In this document: one piece after another, positions 1,378-10,628 of the stretch
Layout: every line of letters starts with the position of its first letter
How positions within the stretch are numbered: position 1 is the first letter of the stretch
From: Myxococcales bacterium
Lineage (GTDB): Bacteria; Myxococcota; Myxococcia; Myxococcales; Myxococcaceae
NCBI GenBank assembly: GCA_020846875.1
Contig: JADLDB010000056.1
Location: 62,001-126,000, forward strand
Reading direction: 5' to 3'
Length of the DNA: 64,000 nt
Translations under genes and position numbers: made by a program
The notes under the pieces: model-generated
Database searches by the model: none
The model's input: only the letters and a program-made list of their open reading frames with translations
What the model was told of the DNA's origin: nothing

Positions 1378-2063
1378 GCCTTCTTGAACAGGTAGCCACG
1401 GCCTCGAACGGTGATCAGTCGAGCGGGCTCTTCCGGGTTGGCCTCGAAGAGGCGGCGTAGGCGCAGCACGAAGTTGTCGATGGTGCGATCGGTGGGGAAG
1501 GCGTCCATACCCCACACCTCCTCGAGGATGTCCGCCCGGGACAGCACCTTGTCCTCGTTGCGGGCGAAGAGCTCCATCAGCTTGAGCTCCTTGTCGGACA
1601 GCGTTACCTCACCCTCGTGAGTCAGCGCGCGGCCGGTGTCGAAGCGGATCCAGAACTTTCCCAGCTCCAACTGCTTCGGAGGCCCGGCCACGGTGCCCGA
1701 GGCCCGCCGCAGCAGGCTGCGCACCCGCGCCAGCAGCTCGGCCACGTCGAACGGCTTGGTGAGGTAGTCGTCCGCGCCGCAGTCCAGGCCCCGCACGCGG
1801 GACTGCACGTCGCTGCGGGCGGTCAGCATGAGGATGGGGACCTTGAGGCCGTTGTCGCGAGCCTGGCGCACCAGCACGAAGCCCTCGCCGCCCGGGAGCA
1901 TCACGTCGACGATCGCCAGGTCGGCCTTCGCCTCGGCCAGGGCTGCCTCACCTTCGGCGAAGGTGCCCGCGGTCCGCACCTCGTAGCCCGCGTGGCGGAG
2001 GTTGAGCACCACCAGATCGCGCACCAGCGGCTCGTCTTCGATGAGGAGGATCCGATCAGCCAT
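1374..2063 (-). CDS. OmpR/PhoB-family response regulator embedded in the heme operon
   Basis: A 229-aa two-component response regulator. The receiver domain (about 1-120) has the acidic pair in LLIEDEP, phospho-acceptor D53 in IVDVMLP, the conserved Thr in LMLTARSD and Lys in YLTKPF. The C-terminal winged-helix domain (about 130-229) has LSDKELKLMELF and TIDNFVLRLRRLFE and ends with RLITVRGRGYLFKKA, typical of OmpR/PhoB DNA-binding domains. It overlaps the kinase gene upstream by 8 bp and hemH downstream by 4 bp, so kinase, regulator and hem genes are almost certainly co-transcribed. The target is not known. A PhoB-like direct repeat in the hemE/hemD divergent promoter (8760-8778) is the obvious candidate. 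Confidence 0.95.
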   Translation of the reverse strand: MADRILLIEDEPLVRDLVVLNLRHAGYEVRTAGTFAEGEAALAEAKADLAIVDVMLPGGEGFVLVRQARDNGLKVPILMLTARSDVQSRVRGLDCGADDYLTKPFDVAELLARVRSLLRRASGTVAGPPKQLELGKFWIRFDTGRALTHEGEVTLSDKELKLMELFARNEDKVLSRADILEEVWGMDAFPTDRTIDNFVLRLRRLFEANPEEPARLITVRGRGYLFKKA

Positions 2064-3069
2064 GCGCCACCTCTCCAGCAGGCGTCGGCGCGCGCGTGCG
2101 GGCCACCGGCAGCTCGAGGACGAACACGCTGCCCTGGCCCTTCCCAGGGCTGGACGCGGTGAGCTCGCCGTGCATGCGCCGGGCGAGCTGGCGGGAGATG
2201 TACAGGCCCAGGCCGCTGCCGTGCGCCACGCCGCTGCCCTCCTCGCGCTCGAAGGGCTCGAAGAGGCGCTCGGCGTGGGACGGCTCGAAGCCGATCCCGC
2301 GATCTCGCACCTCCAGCCGCCAGCGCTGGGCCGCCACGCTCTCGGACAGCTCGACGTGCCCGCCGCCGTACTTGCGCGCGTTGTCCAGCAGGTTCTCCAG
2401 CACCACGCGCACTCCGTCCGGATCGCAGGCGATGGGGGTGGACTGACGCTTCACCCACGCCGCCTCCTCCTTCCCAGAGATGGACTCGCGGTGGGCGAGG
2501 ATCTCACCGATCAGCCGATCGCTGGGCACGACTTCAGTGCGGGAGGCGCGCGCCACCGAGCGCTGGAAGGCGAGGATCGTCTCCACCAGGTGCTCCAGGC
2601 GATCGCACTCCGCCACGCCGCGCTGGATGAGCTGCGCCTGCAGATCCTGGGGCACCACGCCGCTGCCCAGGCTCTGCAGCAGCATGCGCACGCCGGCCAC
2701 GGGCGTCTTGAGCTGGTGGGAGGTGAGCTGCAGCATGGTCTGCATGCGCTTGTTCTCCGCGGCGCGCTTGCGGGCCACCGCGAAGAGGACCACGGTGAGG
2801 ATCAGCAGCAGCAGCCCGGCGAGGGCCGTCTCGCCGCTGATCATGAATATCTGGCGGGCGGTGTGGGCGTCGAGCTCGGCGAGGCGGCGGGCGCGCTCGG
2901 CGGCGTCGGGGAGCAGCTCGAGCTCGGCGCGGCTCAGGCGATCCATGGCGAGGATGTTCCGCCGCACCAGCACGGACCACCACGCCATCAACGGGCCGAC
3001 GGTGGACAGCGCGGCCCCGAAGAGGAAGACGTCGAGGTTCCTGCCGAAGAATCGCTTGAGCGGCGCCAT
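2056..3069 (-). CDS. Membrane sensor histidine kinase embedded in the heme operon
   Basis: A 337-aa kinase starting MAPLKRFFGR; its ATG lies 1 bp after the hemL stop. Two hydrophobic segments (about 13-35 and 80-99) flank a short ~45-residue charged extracytoplasmic loop, too small for a classical periplasmic sensor domain. The dimerisation/phosphotransfer helix carries LQLTSHQLKTPVAGVRML with H118. The catalytic domain shows the N box (LENLLDNARKYGGG), G1 (RDRGIGFEP), F box (LFEPFERE) and G2 (GSGLGLYISRQLARRMHG). The tail overlaps the response regulator by 8 bp, marking a cognate pair. What it senses is unknown; its place in the operon suggests something tied to heme, porphyrin, iron or redox, but that is inference. 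Confidence 0.94.
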   Translation of the reverse strand: MAPLKRFFGRNLDVFLFGAALSTVGPLMAWWSVLVRRNILAMDRLSRAELELLPDAAERARRLAELDAHTARQIFMISGETALAGLLLLILTVVLFAVARKRAAENKRMQTMLQLTSHQLKTPVAGVRMLLQSLGSGVVPQDLQAQLIQRGVAECDRLEHLVETILAFQRSVARASRTEVVPSDRLIGEILAHRESISGKEEAAWVKRQSTPIACDPDGVRVVLENLLDNARKYGGGHVELSESVAAQRWRLEVRDRGIGFEPSHAERLFEPFEREEGSGVAHGSGLGLYISRQLARRMHGELTASSPGKGQGSVFVLELPVARTRAPTPAGEVAHG

Positions 3070-3070
3070 G

Positions 3071-4345
3071 TCATGCTCCCGCGAGGGCCTCCACCAGTTG
3101 CTGGACGTGCGCCGGCTCGTGCGCGGAGGAGAGGAAGCCGACTTCATACGCCGAAGGAGGCAGGTACAGGCCCTGCTCCAGCCAGCCCTGGTAGCGCGAG
3201 CGGAAGCCCTTGATCGCGTCCTCGGAGATCGCCTCGGCGCGCGTGGGCACCGGCGCGGAGCGATCGAAGTACGGCCAGAAGACCGAGCCGACCCGCACCA
3301 ACTGGAAGGCCAGGTTCTGCTTCCCCACGAAGGCCGCGTCCATCGCCTCGCCCGCCTTCGCGATGCGCCGGTACGGCTCGCCCGTCTTCAGTTGCTCCAG
3401 GCACGCCACGCCGGCGGCCAGCGCCACCGGGTTCCCCGACATGGTGCCGGCCTGGTACACGCGGCCCGCCGGGGCCAGGCGATCGAGAAGCTCCGCGCGG
3501 CCCGCGACGGCGCCCACCGGGAGCCCGCCGCCGATGATCTTCCCCAGGGTGACGAGATCCGGCCGCACGTCCACCGTCAGGCCGTAGCCGTGGAAGCCCA
3601 GCCGGAAGCCGGAGATCACCTCGTCGAACACCAGCAGCGCGCCGTGCTTCTGGGTGATGGCGCGGAGCGCCTGGAGGTACCTTCTTTCCTGCACCAGCAG
3701 GCCGTTGTTGGCGGGCAGGGGCTCGATGAAGGCAGCGGCGAGGCGGGCGCCGTGCACGCGGAAGAGCTCCTCTAGCGCGCCCACGTCGCCCAGCGGCGCC
3801 ACCAGGGTGTCCTTCGCCACGGTGGGCGTCACCCCTTCGCTGTCCGCGAGGCCCAGCGTGGCCACGCCGCTGCCGGCCTTCACCAGCATCGCGTCGGCGT
3901 GCCCGTGGTAGCAGCCGGAGAACTTGAGGATCAGCGGCCGCCCGGTGTGCGCCCGCGCCAGTCGCATCGCCGTCATCACCGCCTCGGTGCCGGAGACGAC
4001 GAAGCGGATCCTCTCGAAGGGCTGGTAGGCGGAGAGGATCAGCTCGGCCAGCGTCACCTCGAGCCGGTGCGGAGCTCCGAAGGCCAGGCCGTCCTTCGCC
4101 GCCTTCGTCACCGCCTCCACCACCTGCGGGTTGGCGTGGCCGAGGATCAGCGGGCCCCAGGCGAGGCAGAAGTCGAGGTACTTCCGCCCGTCCTCGTCCC
4201 ACAGGTACGCGCCGTCGCCGCGGGCGATGTAGCGGGGCGTGCCGCCCACGTGCCCGAAGGCGCGCACCGGGCTGGAGACGCCGCCGGGCATCAGCGCGCG
4301 GGCCTGGGCGAAGAGGCGCTCAGAGGCGCCGGGCGAGCCACTCAT
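3071..4345 (-). CDS. hemL: Glutamate-1-semialdehyde 2,1-aminomutase
   Basis: PLP enzyme of the C5 pathway converting glutamate-1-semialdehyde to 5-aminolevulinate. The 424 aa are the usual family length. Class-III aminotransferase-fold motifs are seen: RLFAQARALMPGGVSSPVRAF at the N terminus, the cofactor-phosphate region VVSGTEAVMTAMRLAR (about 116-131), FDEVISGFR (240-248) and the Schiff-base lysine K269 in TLGKIIGGGLPVG. The start overlaps the hemC 3' end by 26 bp, the longest overlap in the operon. It works directly after HemA, encoded two genes upstream. The alternative of a generic class-III aminotransferase is ruled out by the GSA-type signature and the context. Confidence 0.96.
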   Translation of the reverse strand: MSGSPGASERLFAQARALMPGGVSSPVRAFGHVGGTPRYIARGDGAYLWDEDGRKYLDFCLAWGPLILGHANPQVVEAVTKAAKDGLAFGAPHRLEVTLAELILSAYQPFERIRFVVSGTEAVMTAMRLARAHTGRPLILKFSGCYHGHADAMLVKAGSGVATLGLADSEGVTPTVAKDTLVAPLGDVGALEELFRVHGARLAAAFIEPLPANNGLLVQERRYLQALRAITQKHGALLVFDEVISGFRLGFHGYGLTVDVRPDLVTLGKIIGGGLPVGAVAGRAELLDRLAPAGRVYQAGTMSGNPVALAAGVACLEQLKTGEPYRRIAKAGEAMDAAFVGKQNLAFQLVRVGSVFWPYFDRSAPVPTRAEAISEDAIKGFRSRYQGWLEQGLYLPPSAYEVGFLSSAHEPAHVQQLVEALAGA

Positions 4346-5246
4346 GATCGATCTCCCTCGATGACCTCGACAGTGAGTCCAGTTGCTGCTGCAGCCACTC
4401 GGTGGTGGGCAGCTCGGCCGGCAACGGCACCTGCGCCTGGTGCCATGCGGTGCCGGCCAGCAGGCCCAGGAAGGCGCGATCGCCGTCCACGAAGCAGCCG
4501 AAGGGCGTGGTGCAGCCCCCTTCCAGCACCCGCAGGAAGTCGCGCTCGATGGTGGTGGCGTGGCGGGTGGGCCCGTCGTCCAGCGCCGAGAGGAGCTGCC
4601 GCACCTCGACGTCGTCGGCCCGGCACTGCACCGCCACGCTGCCCTGGCCGGGAGCGCACACCCAGCGCCGGGGGTTGAGCCGCAGCACCACCAGCCCGGA
4701 GAGCTCGACGCCCAGCCGCGCCACGCCCGCCTCGGCGAGGAGGATCCCGTCGTACTGGCCGCTCTTCAGCTTCTCTACGCGCGTGGGCACGTTTCCGCGC
4801 AGCGGCTGGGGCGAGCAGTGTGGACAGTAGCTCCGCAGCAGCGCCTCGCGCCGCGACGACGAGCTCCCCACCTTCGCGCCGCGCCTGAGCGGCAAGAGGC
4901 CCGCCTGTTCGTCGTACGCCTCGGGCCGGAGGATCAGCAGGTCACCGGCCGGTGCCCGCCGCAGCGTGGCCCCGACGGTGAGGCCCACCGGGGAGCGGGT
5001 GGGGAGATCCTTGAGCGAGTGCACCGCCCAATCGATCTCGTTGGCGTGCAGCGCGGCCTCGAGCTCCCGGCTGAAGAAGCCCTTCTCCAGCGAGCCCTGG
5101 AGGCGCTCGGTCAGGTTGACGTCGCCCTCGGTGGTGATGATCCGCTCGGCGATCGAGCGCTCCTTCGCAGAGAGGAGCGAGGTGACGTGCCGAGTCTGCC
5201 AGAGCGCCAGCGCGCTGCCGCGGGTGCCGACGGTGAAGGTCCTCAC
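4320..5246 (-). CDS. hemC: Porphobilinogen deaminase (hydroxymethylbilane synthase)
   Basis: Polymerises four porphobilinogens into hydroxymethylbilane. The 308-aa product starts at a GTG that forms a GTGA overlap with the hemA stop, giving VRTFTVGTRGSALALWQ, the family N terminus. The catalytic Asp is D80 in VHSLKDLPT; substrate-binding arginines lie in GSSSSRREALLR and RGNVPTRVEKL. C245 in LEGGCTTPFGC is the residue that carries the dipyrromethane cofactor. Length is normal. A longer reading frame upstream lies inside hemA and is not coding. Confidence 0.95.
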   Translation of the reverse strand: MRTFTVGTRGSALALWQTRHVTSLLSAKERSIAERIITTEGDVNLTERLQGSLEKGFFSRELEAALHANEIDWAVHSLKDLPTRSPVGLTVGATLRRAPAGDLLILRPEAYDEQAGLLPLRRGAKVGSSSSRREALLRSYCPHCSPQPLRGNVPTRVEKLKSGQYDGILLAEAGVARLGVELSGLVVLRLNPRRWVCAPGQGSVAVQCRADDVEVRQLLSALDDGPTRHATTIERDFLRVLEGGCTTPFGCFVDGDRAFLGLLAGTAWHQAQVPLPAELPTTEWLQQQLDSLSRSSREIDHEWLARRL

Positions 5247-6319
5247 GGGGCCTTCTCCCGGGCGCGCTGGAGCAGCGTATGGGTGAAGGCGCCCACCGCC
5301 TGGCGCACCTTCTCCTTCTGCTCGCGGGGCAGGCCTTCCAGCAGCGTGGGCAGCTGCTCGTGGAGGAAGGCGGTGCGCGCGGCGTCGATGGCCGCCAGCA
5401 CCTCGTGGTTGCCCTTGCTGGCGAGGGTGGCAGCCAGGCGGTTGGCGGACTCCAGCATCAGGGACTCCAGGCGATCGCGCTCCGCGTCGGACAGCTTCAG
5501 CTCGGGGCGTGCGAGCAGATCGTCGAGACCCACGAAAGTCCAGCCCGGGCCGTCCTTCACCTGCGGCGGAGCTCCGGCGTCGATGCACAGGCCCGGCGTC
5601 CGCCGGGGCGGCAGGTTGAGCCAGGCGTGCGCCGCGCCGGTGCACACCACCAGCGCGTCGAGGCCGGTCATCTTCTCGAACAGCTCGGCGACGGTGGCGC
5701 GGCTGAAGGCGCTGACCTCGAAGGCCTGCGCGCCCTTGAGCGAGCGCTGCATGGCCTGGCCGAACTCGCCGCGTCCCAGGACGGCAACCCTCTTCGCGCC
5801 CGCTTCCTTGAGCGCCTCGCGGACCAGGGTCTGCACGCCGCGGCTGTCCGCCCCGTGCCCCTCTTCGCGCCGGTCGTGGATCAAGCGCGCGACGTGCTTC
5901 CATACCTTGCGCAGGTGGGGATCGGTGAGGCCCTGAGCGCGCGCCTCCTCGAAGGACTGCAGCAACTGGCGGCCGACCGCGGCCTCACCTTCGGCCACCG
6001 AGTCGAGCCCCGCGGCGACGCGCAGGAGGTAGTGGCTGGCCCCCGCGCCGGCCCGCACGTGCAGGTGATCCGGCTCCAGGCCCGGCACGCGTGCGTGCAG
6101 GGCGCCCTTGAGCAGGTTGGCGGCCCACTCGGGCTGGGGAGAGGAGAGGACGAACTCGGTGCGGCTGCAGGTGGACACGCACACCGCGCCGGCGACGTAC
6201 CCGCCGTGGCGGAGCGAGACGATCGGCTCGGTTTCCGGCGTCAGCATGGCCAACTGCGCGCGGATCCGCGTCGGGGCGGTCCGCCACGTCGCGCCGACGA
6301 CGGCGAGGGGGACGGTCAA
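5243..6319 (-). CDS. hemA: Glutamyl-tRNA reductase
   Basis: Reduces glutamyl-tRNA(Glu) to glutamate-1-semialdehyde with NADPH, the entry step of the C5 pathway. The catalytic Cys is C51 in VCVSTCSRTEFV, followed by LRVAAGLDSVAEGE (family: VASGLDSxxxGE). The nucleotide domain has RVAVLGRGEFGQAM and the end is a helical dimerisation region. A TTG at 6317-6319 overlapping the hemG stop (TTGA) is preferred as start: it places the expected VVGATWRTAP at residues 7-16 and follows the overlap pattern of the operon. An ATG-type start 13 codons upstream cannot be excluded. At 358 aa it is clearly shorter than the ~420 aa of many homologues, mostly through a compact C-terminal part. Confidence 0.93.
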   Translation of the reverse strand: MTVPLAVVGATWRTAPTRIRAQLAMLTPETEPIVSLRHGGYVAGAVCVSTCSRTEFVLSSPQPEWAANLLKGALHARVPGLEPDHLHVRAGAGASHYLLRVAAGLDSVAEGEAAVGRQLLQSFEEARAQGLTDPHLRKVWKHVARLIHDRREEGHGADSRGVQTLVREALKEAGAKRVAVLGRGEFGQAMQRSLKGAQAFEVSAFSRATVAELFEKMTGLDALVVCTGAAHAWLNLPPRRTPGLCIDAGAPPQVKDGPGWTFVGLDDLLARPELKLSDAERDRLESLMLESANRLAATLASKGNHEVLAAIDAARTAFLHEQLPTLLEGLPREQKEKVRQAVGAFTHTLLQRAREKAP

Positions 6320-7701
6320 GGCCGGATCTCCTGGGCGACGGCGGAAGGCGGTGGGCACCCGGGGACGCGGCGCAGCACCTCCTCGGCTGCCGCAAAGCCG
6401 CTGGCGATCGCGTCCTTCATCGCCGCGCCTCCGAGGTAGCTGCCCGCGAGGGAGATCGGCAGGCCGCGCAGTGTCTCGCGCAGCTCCCCCAGCCGCTGGG
6501 CGTGGCCCACCGGGGGCTGGAAGACGCCGCGGGCCCAGCGCACCACGCCGACGATCTCTCCGAAGGTGCCGCCGGTGAGCGACTCGAGATCCCTCGCGCA
6601 GCCACGGGCCAGCGCCGTGTCGGACAGCGCCGCGCGCTCCGGGTGGACGCCGCCGCCGACGAAGGTGCTGAAGCGCCGGGGCGTCTCGGCCAGCAGGTCG
6701 CTGACGAACAGGCTGCCCAGGGCGAAGCGCTCCTCCACCGGGGCCGAGAGGTAGCCGAAGCCCTCAGGTAACTTCGACTCGCCCGGGAAGCGCTCCGCCC
6801 ACTGCACCAGGGCCAGGGGAGCGTAGGGGAAGGACGCCAGCACGCTGGACGCCGCGGGGGCGCTGGCCTCGAGCAGCGGGGCGGCGGCGAAGGCCTCGGT
6901 GGCGAGGATCACCTGCGCCGCGGTGAGCTGCAGTTGGCCGCCGGCGCTACGCCCGGTCACGCGGACGCCGGTGGGCTGCACGGTGAGGCCGGTCACCTCA
7001 ACGCCGGTGCGCACGGGCACCTTCCGGGCTGCGGCCTCGCCCACCACCGAAAAGCCGCCCTCGAAGGTGAAGAGGCCGGGGCGGCTGTCGTCCTCGGGCT
7101 TGCGCAGGGCGACAAGCACCCCGCGCAGCACGCTGCCGTACTCCTTCTCGGCGTTGACCAGGGCGGGCATGCACGAGGCGGCGGACAGCTTCTTCAGGTC
7201 CCCCGCGAAGATGCCGGTCATCACCGCGCCGAAGAAGTGATCGACGAGCGCGCGGCCGAAGCGGCGCTCGAGGAAGGCGTCCAGCGACTCGTCGGCGCCC
7301 CCGGCTCCGCGGTGGGACGAGAGGAGGTCCCGCGCCAGGCTGACCTTGTCACCGAAGGACAGCGCCCCGGTGGTGAGCACGCTCAAGGGGTTGGGGCGAA
7401 TCGCCAGAAGCTTCCCGCCACGCACGAGGTAGCGGGCGCCGGATCGTGGGGACAGCTTGAGGGCGCGATCCTCCAGCTCGAGGTGCCGCAGGAGCTTCCA
7501 GAAGACCGGGTTGCGCCCGTTGAAGCTGGTGGGGCCGACGGGGAAGTCGCCGAAGGCCGTGGAGCGCGTGGCCGCCTTGCCGCCCAGCGCCTCTGCGCGC
7601 TCGAGGATCAGCACCTCGCGCCCGGCCGCCTTCAGCTCGCACGCCGCGGCGATGCCCGCCAGGCCGCCGCCGAGGACGAGCACCTCGGGGCGATCAGCCA
7701 T
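6316..7701 (-). CDS. hemG: Oxygen-dependent protoporphyrinogen oxidase (HemY/PgoX type)
   Basis: FAD enzyme oxidising protoporphyrinogen IX to protoporphyrin IX with oxygen. The 461-aa protein starts with the dinucleotide-binding motif VLVLGGGLAGIAAACEL and ERAEALGGKAAT, and ends with the second FAD-contact region (SLAGSYLGGAAMKDAIASG), as in HemY/PPOX proteins. Also seen are RHLELEDRALKLSPRSGARYLV and LERRFGRALVDHFFGAVMTGIFAG, typical of the family. The start overlaps hemE by 8 bp; the stop forms TTGA with hemA. The symbol hemG follows common database use for this family; hemY and pgoX are synonyms. It is unrelated to the flavodoxin-like HemG of E. coli. Pairing with the oxygen-independent HemN is notable. 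Confidence 0.94.
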   Translation of the reverse strand: MADRPEVLVLGGGLAGIAAACELKAAGREVLILERAEALGGKAATRSTAFGDFPVGPTSFNGRNPVFWKLLRHLELEDRALKLSPRSGARYLVRGGKLLAIRPNPLSVLTTGALSFGDKVSLARDLLSSHRGAGGADESLDAFLERRFGRALVDHFFGAVMTGIFAGDLKKLSAASCMPALVNAEKEYGSVLRGVLVALRKPEDDSRPGLFTFEGGFSVVGEAAARKVPVRTGVEVTGLTVQPTGVRVTGRSAGGQLQLTAAQVILATEAFAAAPLLEASAPAASSVLASFPYAPLALVQWAERFPGESKLPEGFGYLSAPVEERFALGSLFVSDLLAETPRRFSTFVGGGVHPERAALSDTALARGCARDLESLTGGTFGEIVGVVRWARGVFQPPVGHAQRLGELRETLRGLPISLAGSYLGGAAMKDAIASGFAAAEEVLRRVPGCPPPSAVAQEIRP

Positions 7702-8737
7702 GGCGGGTCACCTCGTCGCAGAAGGCGTGCACGGCGTCCGGGTCCGTGTCCTTGTGGATGCCGTGCCCCAGGTTGACGATGCAGCGCCGGTACTGGCTCG
7801 TCTCCAGCATGGTGGCCAACAGGTGCCGCACGCGATCTCGCGCCACGTCGGCGCCGGCCATGAGGAGGATCGGATCGACGTTGCCCTGCAGGATGGACCT
7901 CGGGAAGCGGGCGCGGGCCTCCCGCCAGTCCACCCGCCAGTCGAGGCTGAAGCCGTGGGCGCCGGTGTCCGCCAGCACGGGCAGCAGGTGAGCTCCTCCG
8001 CGCACGAAGAGCAGCACCGGCACGCCCCTCGCGGCGAGGGGCTGGGTGATGCGGCGGAGCGCCGGCACGCAGAAGCGCGCGTAGTCCTCGGCGTCCAGCA
8101 GCCCACCCCAGGTGTCGAAGAGCTGCACGCAGTCGGCGCCGGCGTCGGCCTGCGCGGCCAGGTACTCGGCGGCCACGTCGGCGAGGATCCCCAGGGCCTT
8201 CTGGGCCAGCCACGGCTGCTGGTGCAGCATGATCCGCGCCTTCGCGAAGTCGTCGCTCCCTCCGCCTTCGGTCGCGTACGCGAAGAGCGTGAAGGGCGCG
8301 CCCGCGAAGCCGAGGATCCCGTAGCGATCTTCCAGGGTGGTGCGCAGGTGACGCACCGCCTCGCTGACGAAGGACAGGCGCTGCGCGACGCCGTCGACCG
8401 TCCAGGCCGAGAGGTCGGCCGCGGTGGACAGGGTGTTGACCAGCCGCGGGCCCTCGCCGGGGCCGAAGGTGACGCCCAGGCCCATCGCCTCGGGCACGGT
8501 GAGGATGTCGGAGAAGACGATCGCCGCGTCCAGGCTGAGGCGCTCCAGCGGCTCGCGGGCCACCAGGGTGGACAGCTCCGGCTGGCGGCAGACCTCCCAG
8601 AAGCCGTGCTGGCGGCGCACCTCGCGGTACTGGGGCAGGTAGCGGCCCGCCTGGCGCATCAGCCACACCGGAGGGCGGTCGACGGCCTCGCCACGGAGAG
8701 CAGCGAGGAAGCGCGCGCGGGGATTCATTCCCGGCAT
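7694..8737 (-). CDS. hemE: Uroporphyrinogen decarboxylase
   Basis: Decarboxylates the four acetate side chains of uroporphyrinogen III to give coproporphyrinogen III. The 347-aa protein has the signature RPPVWLMRQAGRYLPQYRE near the N terminus, the catalytic Asp in AAIVFSDILTVPEAMGL, and the C-terminal NLGHGIHKDTDPD. It is the first gene of the minus-strand hem operon. Start choice: ATG at 8737 (MPGMNPR) or the second ATG at 8728; neither has a strong ribosome-binding site, so a very short leader is possible. The divergent promoter region shared with hemD is immediately upstream. Confidence 0.96.
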   Translation of the reverse strand: MPGMNPRARFLAALRGEAVDRPPVWLMRQAGRYLPQYREVRRQHGFWEVCRQPELSTLVAREPLERLSLDAAIVFSDILTVPEAMGLGVTFGPGEGPRLVNTLSTAADLSAWTVDGVAQRLSFVSEAVRHLRTTLEDRYGILGFAGAPFTLFAYATEGGGSDDFAKARIMLHQQPWLAQKALGILADVAAEYLAAQADAGADCVQLFDTWGGLLDAEDYARFCVPALRRITQPLAARGVPVLLFVRGGAHLLPVLADTGAHGFSLDWRVDWREARARFPRSILQGNVDPILLMAGADVARDRVRHLLATMLETSQYRRCIVNLGHGIHKDTDPDAVHAFCDEVTRHG

Positions 8738-8759
8738 TACTCATCTACCCACGCCTGAG

Positions 8760-8778
8760 CAGTGTCACCACAGTGTCA
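8760..8778. promoter_or_regulatory. Pho-box-like direct repeat in the hemE/hemD divergent promoter
   Basis: The octamer CAGTGTCA occurs twice (8760-8767 and 8771-8778), 11 bp apart start to start. This gives TGTCA-N6-TGTCA, the same core and spacing as the E. coli Pho box bound by PhoB. OmpR/PhoB-type regulators commonly bind tandem repeats at ~11-bp spacing, and such a regulator is encoded in the operon starting 23 bp away. Binding by that regulator is inference. No convincing -10 element is seen on either side. Confidence 0.5.
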
Positions 8779-8823
8779 TGTGGCCGGCCGAGGCCTCGAG
8801 GGTTGTGCAAAGGAGGCGGGTGC

Positions 8824-9582
8824 ATGGACGCGCCGGTGGACAGCACCTGGCTGTTGACGAGGGAGGCGGAGGACGCCGCCCTCGACGCCGAGGGGTTGTC
8901 GAAGGCGGGGGTGAAGTGGGCCAGCGTGCCGTGCATCGAGTTCGTCACGAAGGCGTGGCCCGAGTGGCCAGCGCGCGACGGGACGCCGGTGCTGTTCATC
9001 ACCAGCCGGAGAGCGGCGACGGCGGTTCCGCCGGGGGACGCGTGGCGCGCGAAGGACACGCCCGGGCTGATCGCGGCGACGGCGCCGGTGACGAGCGCCT
9101 GGCTCGAGGCGCACGGCCACCCGGTGGACTTCTGGGCGCACGGCGGAGCGGAGGGCCTGGCGCGGACGCTGGTGGCGGCGTGGCAGGCCCAGGGCCGGCC
9201 GGCGTGGCACGTCCGCTACCCGGCGAGTGACGCGGGCCAGCACGCGCCCGAGCAGGAGAACGCGGTGGCGCTGCTCAAGACGGTGGGCGCGGTGGATCGC
9301 GCGGTGGTGTACGAGACGCGGGCGGCCCAGGGACTGGAGGAGCGGCTGGAGCCCTTCCTCCTGGCACCGTACAGCTTGAGCTTCTCGAGCCCTTCCGCGG
9401 TGAAGGCCTTCCTTGCGGCGTGCCCCAGGGGATCGCGCGTGGCGGACCGGGTGGTGTGCTTCGGCGCGTCCACCGCGCGCGCCTGGAGCGTGGGCCGGCC
9501 CGAGAGCTGGCCCCAGGGTGAGCTGTCGGAGTCGTCGTTGGTGGAGACGATCACGTCGAGTCAGGAGCCAGCCAGGTCATGA
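8824..9582 (+). CDS. hemD: Uroporphyrinogen-III synthase
   Basis: Cyclises hydroxymethylbilane with ring-D inversion to uroporphyrinogen III. The family is poorly conserved, so the call rests on weak two-domain features and position. Visible are WLLTREAEDAA at the N terminus, LFITSRRAATAV (the F-x-S/T-x-x-AV strand), RAVVYETRAAQGLEERL (family vYeT) and LSFSSPSAVKAFL, the most typical HemD motif. Start ATG 8824 (MDAPVDSTWL) is chosen because of a strong Shine-Dalgarno AAAGGAGG at 8809-8816; an upstream GTG/ATG extension lacks one. The stop overlaps hemB by 4 bp (ATGA). About 252 aa, normal for the family. Confidence 0.88.
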   Translation: MDAPVDSTWLLTREAEDAALDAEGLSKAGVKWASVPCIEFVTKAWPEWPARDGTPVLFITSRRAATAVPPGDAWRAKDTPGLIAATAPVTSAWLEAHGHPVDFWAHGGAEGLARTLVAAWQAQGRPAWHVRYPASDAGQHAPEQENAVALLKTVGAVDRAVVYETRAAQGLEERLEPFLLAPYSLSFSSPSAVKAFLAACPRGSRVADRVVCFGASTARAWSVGRPESWPQGELSESSLVETITSSQEPARS

Positions 9583-10628
9583 GCCAGAGCCTTCCCGTCC
9601 GGCTTCGCCGGCTGCGCCGCACCCCCTCGATGCGCGCGCTCTTCACCGAGGTGTCGGTGACGCCGGGCGATCTGGTGCAGCCGTACTTCATCGTCCCCGG
9701 GAAGGGGCAGAAGGCCGAGACGCGGCCGGGCGTGGGCCTGTGGCAGTTGTCGCCGGACATGCTGCGGGAAGAGGTGCAGCAACTGGCGAAGGGCGGGGTG
9801 GGCGGGGTGATGTTGTTCGGCGTGCCGGATCACAAGCGCGACGACGGGAAGGGGCTGGACAAGCAGCTCGCACCGCTGGAGGCGGCGGTGAAGGAAGTGA
9901 AGGCCACTGCGCCCGAGCTGCCCCTGTTCGCCGACGTGTGCCTGTGCGCCTACACCTCGCACGGCCACTGCGGCCTGGTGAAGGACGGTGAGATCGTCAA
10001 CGACGAGTCGGTGAGGGTGCTGTCGGAGATGGCGGTGCTGTTGGCGAGGTGGGGCGTCGACTTCGTGTGTCCGTCGGACATGATGGACGGGCGGGTGCGG
10101 GCGATCCGCCTGGCGCTGGACGAGAGCGGGCTGGAGCAGACGGCGATCCTCTCCTACGCGATCAAGATGGCGTCGGCCTTCTACGGGCCGTTCCGCGAGG
10201 CGGCGCACTCGGCGCCCAGCTTCGGCGATCGCAAGAGCTACCAGATGCCGGCGAACAACCGGCGTGAAGCGCGGCGGGAGCTGCTCGCCGACGTGGAGGA
10301 GGGCGCCGACGCCCTGCTGGTGAAGCCGGCCATGACCAACCTCGATCTGCTGCGCGACGCCCGTGAGGCCACCGACGTCCCGCTCTTCGCGTACCAGGTG
10401 TCGGGGGAGTACGCGATGATGCGGGCCGCCGGGGACGCGGGGCTCATCGACTTCGAGCGCGCGGTGGACGAGTCGCTGGTGTCGATCAAGCGGGCGGGGG
10501 CAGACGTGATCGTCAGCTACGCGGCGCGGGCGATGTGCCGGAAGGAGCGGGGTTGGCGCGTCGGTCAGGCTGCGGGTACGTCGCCCGTCGTCGAAGAAGC
10601 GTCATCAGCGGGAATAGCTCAGCGGTAG
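9579..10628 (+). CDS. hemB: Delta-aminolevulinic acid dehydratase (porphobilinogen synthase)
   Basis: Condenses two 5-aminolevulinates to porphobilinogen. The zinc-type active site is present: DVCLCAYTSHGHCG with C121, C123 and C131. The two Schiff-base lysines are K196 (SYAIKMASAFYGPF) and K249 (LLVKPAMTNLDLL). The start forms ATGA with hemD. The frame has no stop at the usual HemB end (after about SYAARAM); it continues ~25 residues and terminates at a TAG in the D-arm of the downstream tRNA-Gly, so 21 bp of the CDS overlap the tRNA gene. An undetected frameshift near 10530 could also produce this tail. Length is 349 aa against the usual 325-340. Confidence 0.95.
   Translation: MSQSLPVRLRRLRRTPSMRALFTEVSVTPGDLVQPYFIVPGKGQKAETRPGVGLWQLSPDMLREEVQQLAKGGVGGVMLFGVPDHKRDDGKGLDKQLAPLEAAVKEVKATAPELPLFADVCLCAYTSHGHCGLVKDGEIVNDESVRVLSEMAVLLARWGVDFVCPSDMMDGRVRAIRLALDESGLEQTAILSYAIKMASAFYGPFREAAHSAPSFGDRKSYQMPANNRREARRELLADVEEGADALLVKPAMTNLDLLRDAREATDVPLFAYQVSGEYAMMRAAGDAGLIDFERAVDESLVSIKRAGADVIVSYAARAMCRKERGWRVGQAAGTSPVVEEASSAGIAQR

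Follow-up and report, generated by a model that had tools for sequence, protein, structure and literature searches.

Which regulator reads the direct repeat that lies between the divergent heme biosynthesis genes hemE and hemD of a Myxococcales genome (G000), and does this repeat link heme synthesis to phosphate signalling, as its likeness to a Pho box had led the first-pass annotation to propose? Little is known about the control of heme synthesis in Myxococcota. The window analysed here, a 64,000-bp stretch of G000, houses the repeat in an 86-bp gap (8738-8823) between the reading frames of hemE (- strand) and hemD (+ strand).

The repeat and the surrounding heme genes

Two copies of CAGTGTCA are found in the gap, at 8760-8767 and 8771-8778, with a period of 11 bp. 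They contain the half-sites TGTCA (8763-8767) and TGTCA (8774-8778), which form TGTCA-N6-TGTCA on the + strand, or TGACA-N6-TGACA when read towards hemE. The 11-bp-spaced repeat initially reported between hemE and hemD is thus present at 8763-8778, and this element, to which no strand is assigned, is referred to below as the hem-box. Among dinucleotide shuffles of the gap, 0.1% contained any 8-mer repeated at period 11, and 0.045% contained TGTCA-N6-TGTCA on either strand. The exact word is not enriched in the 7.06-Mb genome (two matches, compared to one in a reversed control), and therefore the word alone provides no evidence; the evidence is its conservation. A scan of the gap for sigma-70 promoters and terminators found none, and an Rfam search gave no match.

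The first gene of the leftward operon is hemE, encoding uroporphyrinogen decarboxylase (7694-8728, - strand; TIGR01464 over cut-off). Its start was corrected from 8737 to 8728 (MNPRARFL...), because conserved geometry and homology place it there. It is followed on the - strand by genes encoding (i) a hemG/hemY-type protoporphyrinogen oxidase (6316-7701; Pfam Amino_oxidase and synteny), (ii) glutamyl-tRNA reductase, hemA (5243-6319, start approximate; Pfam GlutR_N and synteny), (iii) hydroxymethylbilane synthase, hemC (4320-5246, start approximate; an ORF conserved in the cluster and named by sequence and position), (iv) glutamate-1-semialdehyde aminomutase, hemL (3071-4345; Pfam Aminotran_3 and synteny), (v) a sensor histidine kinase (2056-3069), (vi) an OmpR/PhoB-type response regulator (1374-2063), and (vii) ferrochelatase, hemH (316-1395; Pfam Ferrochelatase). 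The gene following hemH, hemN, lies just left of the window (G000:C56:61040 onwards). On the other side of the gap, the divergent unit on the + strand starts with hemD, encoding uroporphyrinogen-III synthase (8824-9582; Pfam HEM4), and continues with hemB, encoding delta-aminolevulinic acid dehydratase (9579-10628; Pfam ALAD).

The order hemE-G-A-C-L-kinase-regulator-H, with the divergent hemD-B, was found on single contigs of G000, G013, G016 and G019, and hemN is the last gene of the operon in G000 and G016. The clusters of G004 and G025 (loci L196 and L197) lack hemG, and a hemJ gene adjoining hemH is preceded by its own box; this hemJ is a swapped enzyme that has been brought under the same control. 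Both genomes also carry a box before hemN, while in G013 one precedes a stand-alone hemF. The hemJ, hemN and hemF enzymes all score over their NCBIfam cut-offs. In G170, of another family (f20), a box is located before hemB, whose identity rests on tblastn.

Conservation of the box and its promoter geometry

To follow the box across genomes, hemE was located in a first set of 60 relatives. TGAC-N7-TGAC was present upstream of hemE in all 11 genomes sharing this hemE type (at least 54% identity, the window genome included), and in none of the 20 loci with the other type (∼43% identical). A second draw of 96 genomes of the family yielded six further genomes with the same hemE type, each carrying the box. 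In total, the box lies just upstream of hemE in every one of the 17 family members with the same type of hemE, where 0.08 would be expected from dinucleotide shuffles, although these genomes are related and the count therefore overstates the number of independent events. Set against this caveat, the box outlasts a change of neighbour: in G018 and G005, hemE has become separated from hemD, yet the box is retained upstream of hemE. The first-pass annotation had held that a repeat absent from orthologous promoters would not be an operator; on the contrary, it is conserved there. At L199 (G001), L248 (G064), L256 (G118) and L293 (G123), hemE is preceded by additional half-sites or by another box, the copies in G001 being placed at 11-bp steps.

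In an alignment of 25 promoters anchored at the second TGAC, the position 26 nt further downstream is occupied by A in 23 and by T in two (p ∼2e-17 with a background A frequency of ∼0.15), the underlying N20 spacing having been noticed by eye first and counted afterwards. The fixed A is predicted to be the -11 A (master A) of a -10 element. For hemE this would place the -10 element (GAGTAA, - strand) at 8737-8742, with the master A at 8741, and the transcription start at ∼8730. In the hemE promoters of the family, as well as those of hemJ and hemF, the start codon lies 37-43 nt past the second TGAC, and the predicted transcription start therefore falls on the start codon or within a few bases of it. 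The transcripts from these promoters are thus predicted to be leaderless. The centre of the box is located near -41 relative to the predicted hemE start, and no proper -35 hexamer was found 17 bp upstream of the hemE -10 element.

On the hemD side, 13 of 17 genomes have an A 30 nt beyond the box, and the hemD start codon is located ∼40-44 nt past the box in most of the 17; this layout is the same as that of hemN in G004 and G025. In the window, the corresponding -10 position (AAAGGA, 8809-8814, + strand) is weak and overlaps the Shine-Dalgarno-like AAAGGAGG.

The core pattern RTGACN6GTGAC has 19 matches in G000, the genome of the window, compared to nine in the reversed control. All 19 were examined for promoter geometry and neighbouring ORFs, and the full geometry was found at the hemE site only. 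In eight genomes, a stricter pattern gave 25 matches compared to five, with hemE as the target that recurs across genera. One box in G000 (L181:1501-1516; G000:C64:37700-37715) closely resembles the hemE consensus (ATGACAGAGTTGTGAC) and lacks the promoter geometry.

The kinase/regulator pair and its known counterparts

The presence of the box tracks the kinase/OmpR-type regulator pair embedded in the hem operon. Kinase orthologs, separated by a clear gap from other kinases (E <1e-58; next kinase 1e-33), occur in the box-bearing genomes, within the hem operon wherever contigs permit. The kinase is composed, according to Pfam and inspection by eye, of two membrane segments (by eye) with a loop between them, a HisKA domain and a HATPase domain. 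H118 and T122 (Thr at His+4) are invariant in 12 orthologs, and one ortholog has its His at position 97. The loop varies in length and is flanked by invariant WW and MxxGE motifs, which fits sensing within the membrane. The regulator, which the first-pass annotation had correctly placed in the same operon, is encoded, like the kinase, between hemL and hemH (Response_reg and Trans_reg_C domains in Pfam), and its phospho-acceptor D53 is invariant. When a kinase profile was run against the whole phylum, the pair also turned up in other families. Two genomes of f25 (G183 and G184) and two of f11 (G120 and G123) carry it in a heme cluster, and their hemE is preceded by a box; the pair of G132 (f15) has neither a box nor heme genes nearby.

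Matches among solved structures were limited to OmpR-type regulators and kinases of a general kind. HrrSA, ChrSA and HssRS, the heme-responsive systems of Gram-positive bacteria, also exert two-component control over heme homeostasis and are not known to be linked to this box.

The closest named match is HemKR of Leptospira. HemR activates heme genes through a hem-box, TGACA[N6]TGACA (PMC11426443), and in L. interrogans the hemKR pair is located between hemE and hemL (PMC2266917). The L. biflexa pair is an exception, not linked to heme genes, and mutants in its kinase or regulator require heme or 5-aminolevulinic acid (PMC2266917). The periplasmic loop of HemK is dispensable, and linkage of the pair to heme genes in Bdellovibrio has been mentioned (data not shown) (PMC2266917). 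HemR represses hmuO and activates hemA, and added 5-aminolevulinic acid shuts HemKR down via the phosphatase activity of HemK (PMC11426443). The HemKR regulon also takes in exbB/exbD.

The Myxococcota pair shares with HemKR (i) an OmpR/PhoB-type regulator with phospho-acceptor D53, (ii) a HisKA kinase with two membrane segments, a short loop (of variable length here) and Thr at His+4, (iii) the TGACA[N6]TGACA box before heme genes, exact in the window, and (iv) location of the pair among heme biosynthesis genes. It differs in that one long operon carries the pair, flanked by hemL and hemH; in that the box would serve both hemE and the divergent hemD, at a rigid spacing and with mRNAs predicted to be leaderless; and in that it recurs at hemJ, hemN, hemF and hemB. 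By analogy in published box, protein types and linkage, the pair and its box would constitute a HemKR-kind system with a new promoter anatomy.

A proposed switch and the alternatives

We consider it highly probable that this repeat serves as the operator (hem-box) of the two-component pair whose genes the heme operon carries. The view that it forms the natural operator of both divergent heme units is thereby upheld as a prediction, conservation, synteny and spacing all pointing to an OmpR/PhoB-type direct-repeat operator. According to this model, the phosphorylated regulator would bind both half-sites, spaced by 11 bp, in head-to-tail orientation. With its centre near -41 on the hemE side, the box would be positioned as for a class II activator, and, given the lack of a proper -35 hexamer, activation is the most likely outcome: the regulator would switch on the leaderless hemE-hemG-hemA-hemC-hemL-kinase-regulator-hemH-hemN transcript. 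Since the predicted transcript carries the kinase and regulator genes, the system would be autoregulated. For hemD-hemB, the same box would act from a slightly greater distance upstream. A single switch, governed by a membrane sensor that monitors the status of the heme pathway, would thus control both divergent units, which between them comprise the whole pathway and would probably both be activated. We infer regulator binding, activation over repression and the leaderless starts from sequence, and the signal from the shutdown of the Leptospira system by added 5-aminolevulinic acid.

Repression would be just as compatible with a box that covers the -35 region, and a HemR that represses hmuO while activating hemA offers a precedent; nevertheless, the variant in which the same regulator binds the same operator and represses hemE by covering the -35 region seems unlikely. 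There is no -35 hexamer at the usual 17 bp, a weak -10 element with a conserved box at about -41 has the look of an activator-dependent promoter, and the L. biflexa mutants require heme or 5-aminolevulinic acid (PMC2266917). It is far less probable that the TGAC words are simply a conserved core promoter read without a regulator. GTGACA does resemble TTGACA, and its spacing to the -10 element is fixed, but the resulting spacer of 20 bp falls outside the 16-18 bp range and the promoter scan gave no sigma-70 site. Moreover, the upstream TGAC copy is conserved too, copies are added at 11-bp steps in G001, and presence of the box follows the kinase/regulator pair. As for chance, which the near-equal genome-wide counts of the exact word might suggest, its probability is negligible, this reading being refuted by the conservation in 17 of 17 genomes.

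A Pho box, through which PhoB would couple heme synthesis to phosphate starvation, is also very improbable. TGTCA-N6-TGTCA is the layout of the E. coli Pho box, and read from hemE the box is upside down compared to that of phoA. The likeness to PhoB and its box extends to the response-regulator family and to the TGTCA direct repeats with an 11-bp period, but the latter are shared with the hem-box and so are not decisive. A PhoB-like regulator with an adjoining kinase is encoded elsewhere in the genome (G000:C32:24288-26245; 235 bits, also below the PhoB equivalog cut-off), and other OmpR-type regulators such as this one could bind TGTCA repeats. The hem regulator scores 189 bits compared to the 296.2 bits of that cut-off (TIGR02154), which no regulator of 12 genomes passed and which was passed in only two of 14 control genomes. 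In a tree, its clade is separate from the PhoB-like regulators encoded in the same genomes, with full support (100/100). PhoU (PF01895) was absent from six of seven clade genomes tested and PstB over cut-off from seven of eight, G000 included in both cases; of the clade genomes tested, G019 alone has both, and the PstB pair of G016 is divergent. In contrast to PhoB, the regulator is not encoded with phoR, pst or phoU, and the recurring targets of its box are heme genes (hemE, hemJ, hemN, hemF and hemB). The suggested phosphate-heme link is therefore unsupported: the regulator is below the cut-off and belongs to another clade, and G000 has neither PhoU nor PstB over cut-off. The Leptospira HemR hem-box is a better named match than the Pho box.

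Tracking a Pho-box-like word across genomes thus made it possible to link it with the regulator that probably reads it. Together with its spacing and the regulator, the box makes up a directly testable circuit, and a system studied in Leptospira is extended to another phylum, in which non-pathogenic hosts may help to identify the signal sensed by HemK. With no more than even confidence, we further propose that HemKR is not peculiar to Leptospira but represents an ancient module for heme control in Myxococcota, possibly with a wider distribution. One box would fire two divergent leaderless transcripts carrying the whole heme pathway and its own sensor, and the module would be kept, self-regulated, in lineages from which this hemE has seemingly been lost.

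The kinase/regulator pair is retained in three genomes of genus g5 (G035, G116 and G119) that yielded no hemE of this type: no hemE at all was detected in G035 in the search of 60 relatives, and none at 1e-95 in G116 and G119 in the 96-genome draw. Beside the pair in G116 (L294; G116:C86), only a 34-aa hemL remnant was detected. In G035 (L206; G035:C89) and G119 (L295; G119:C297), a box with the leaderless spacing precedes the kinase gene itself, which suggests autoregulation.
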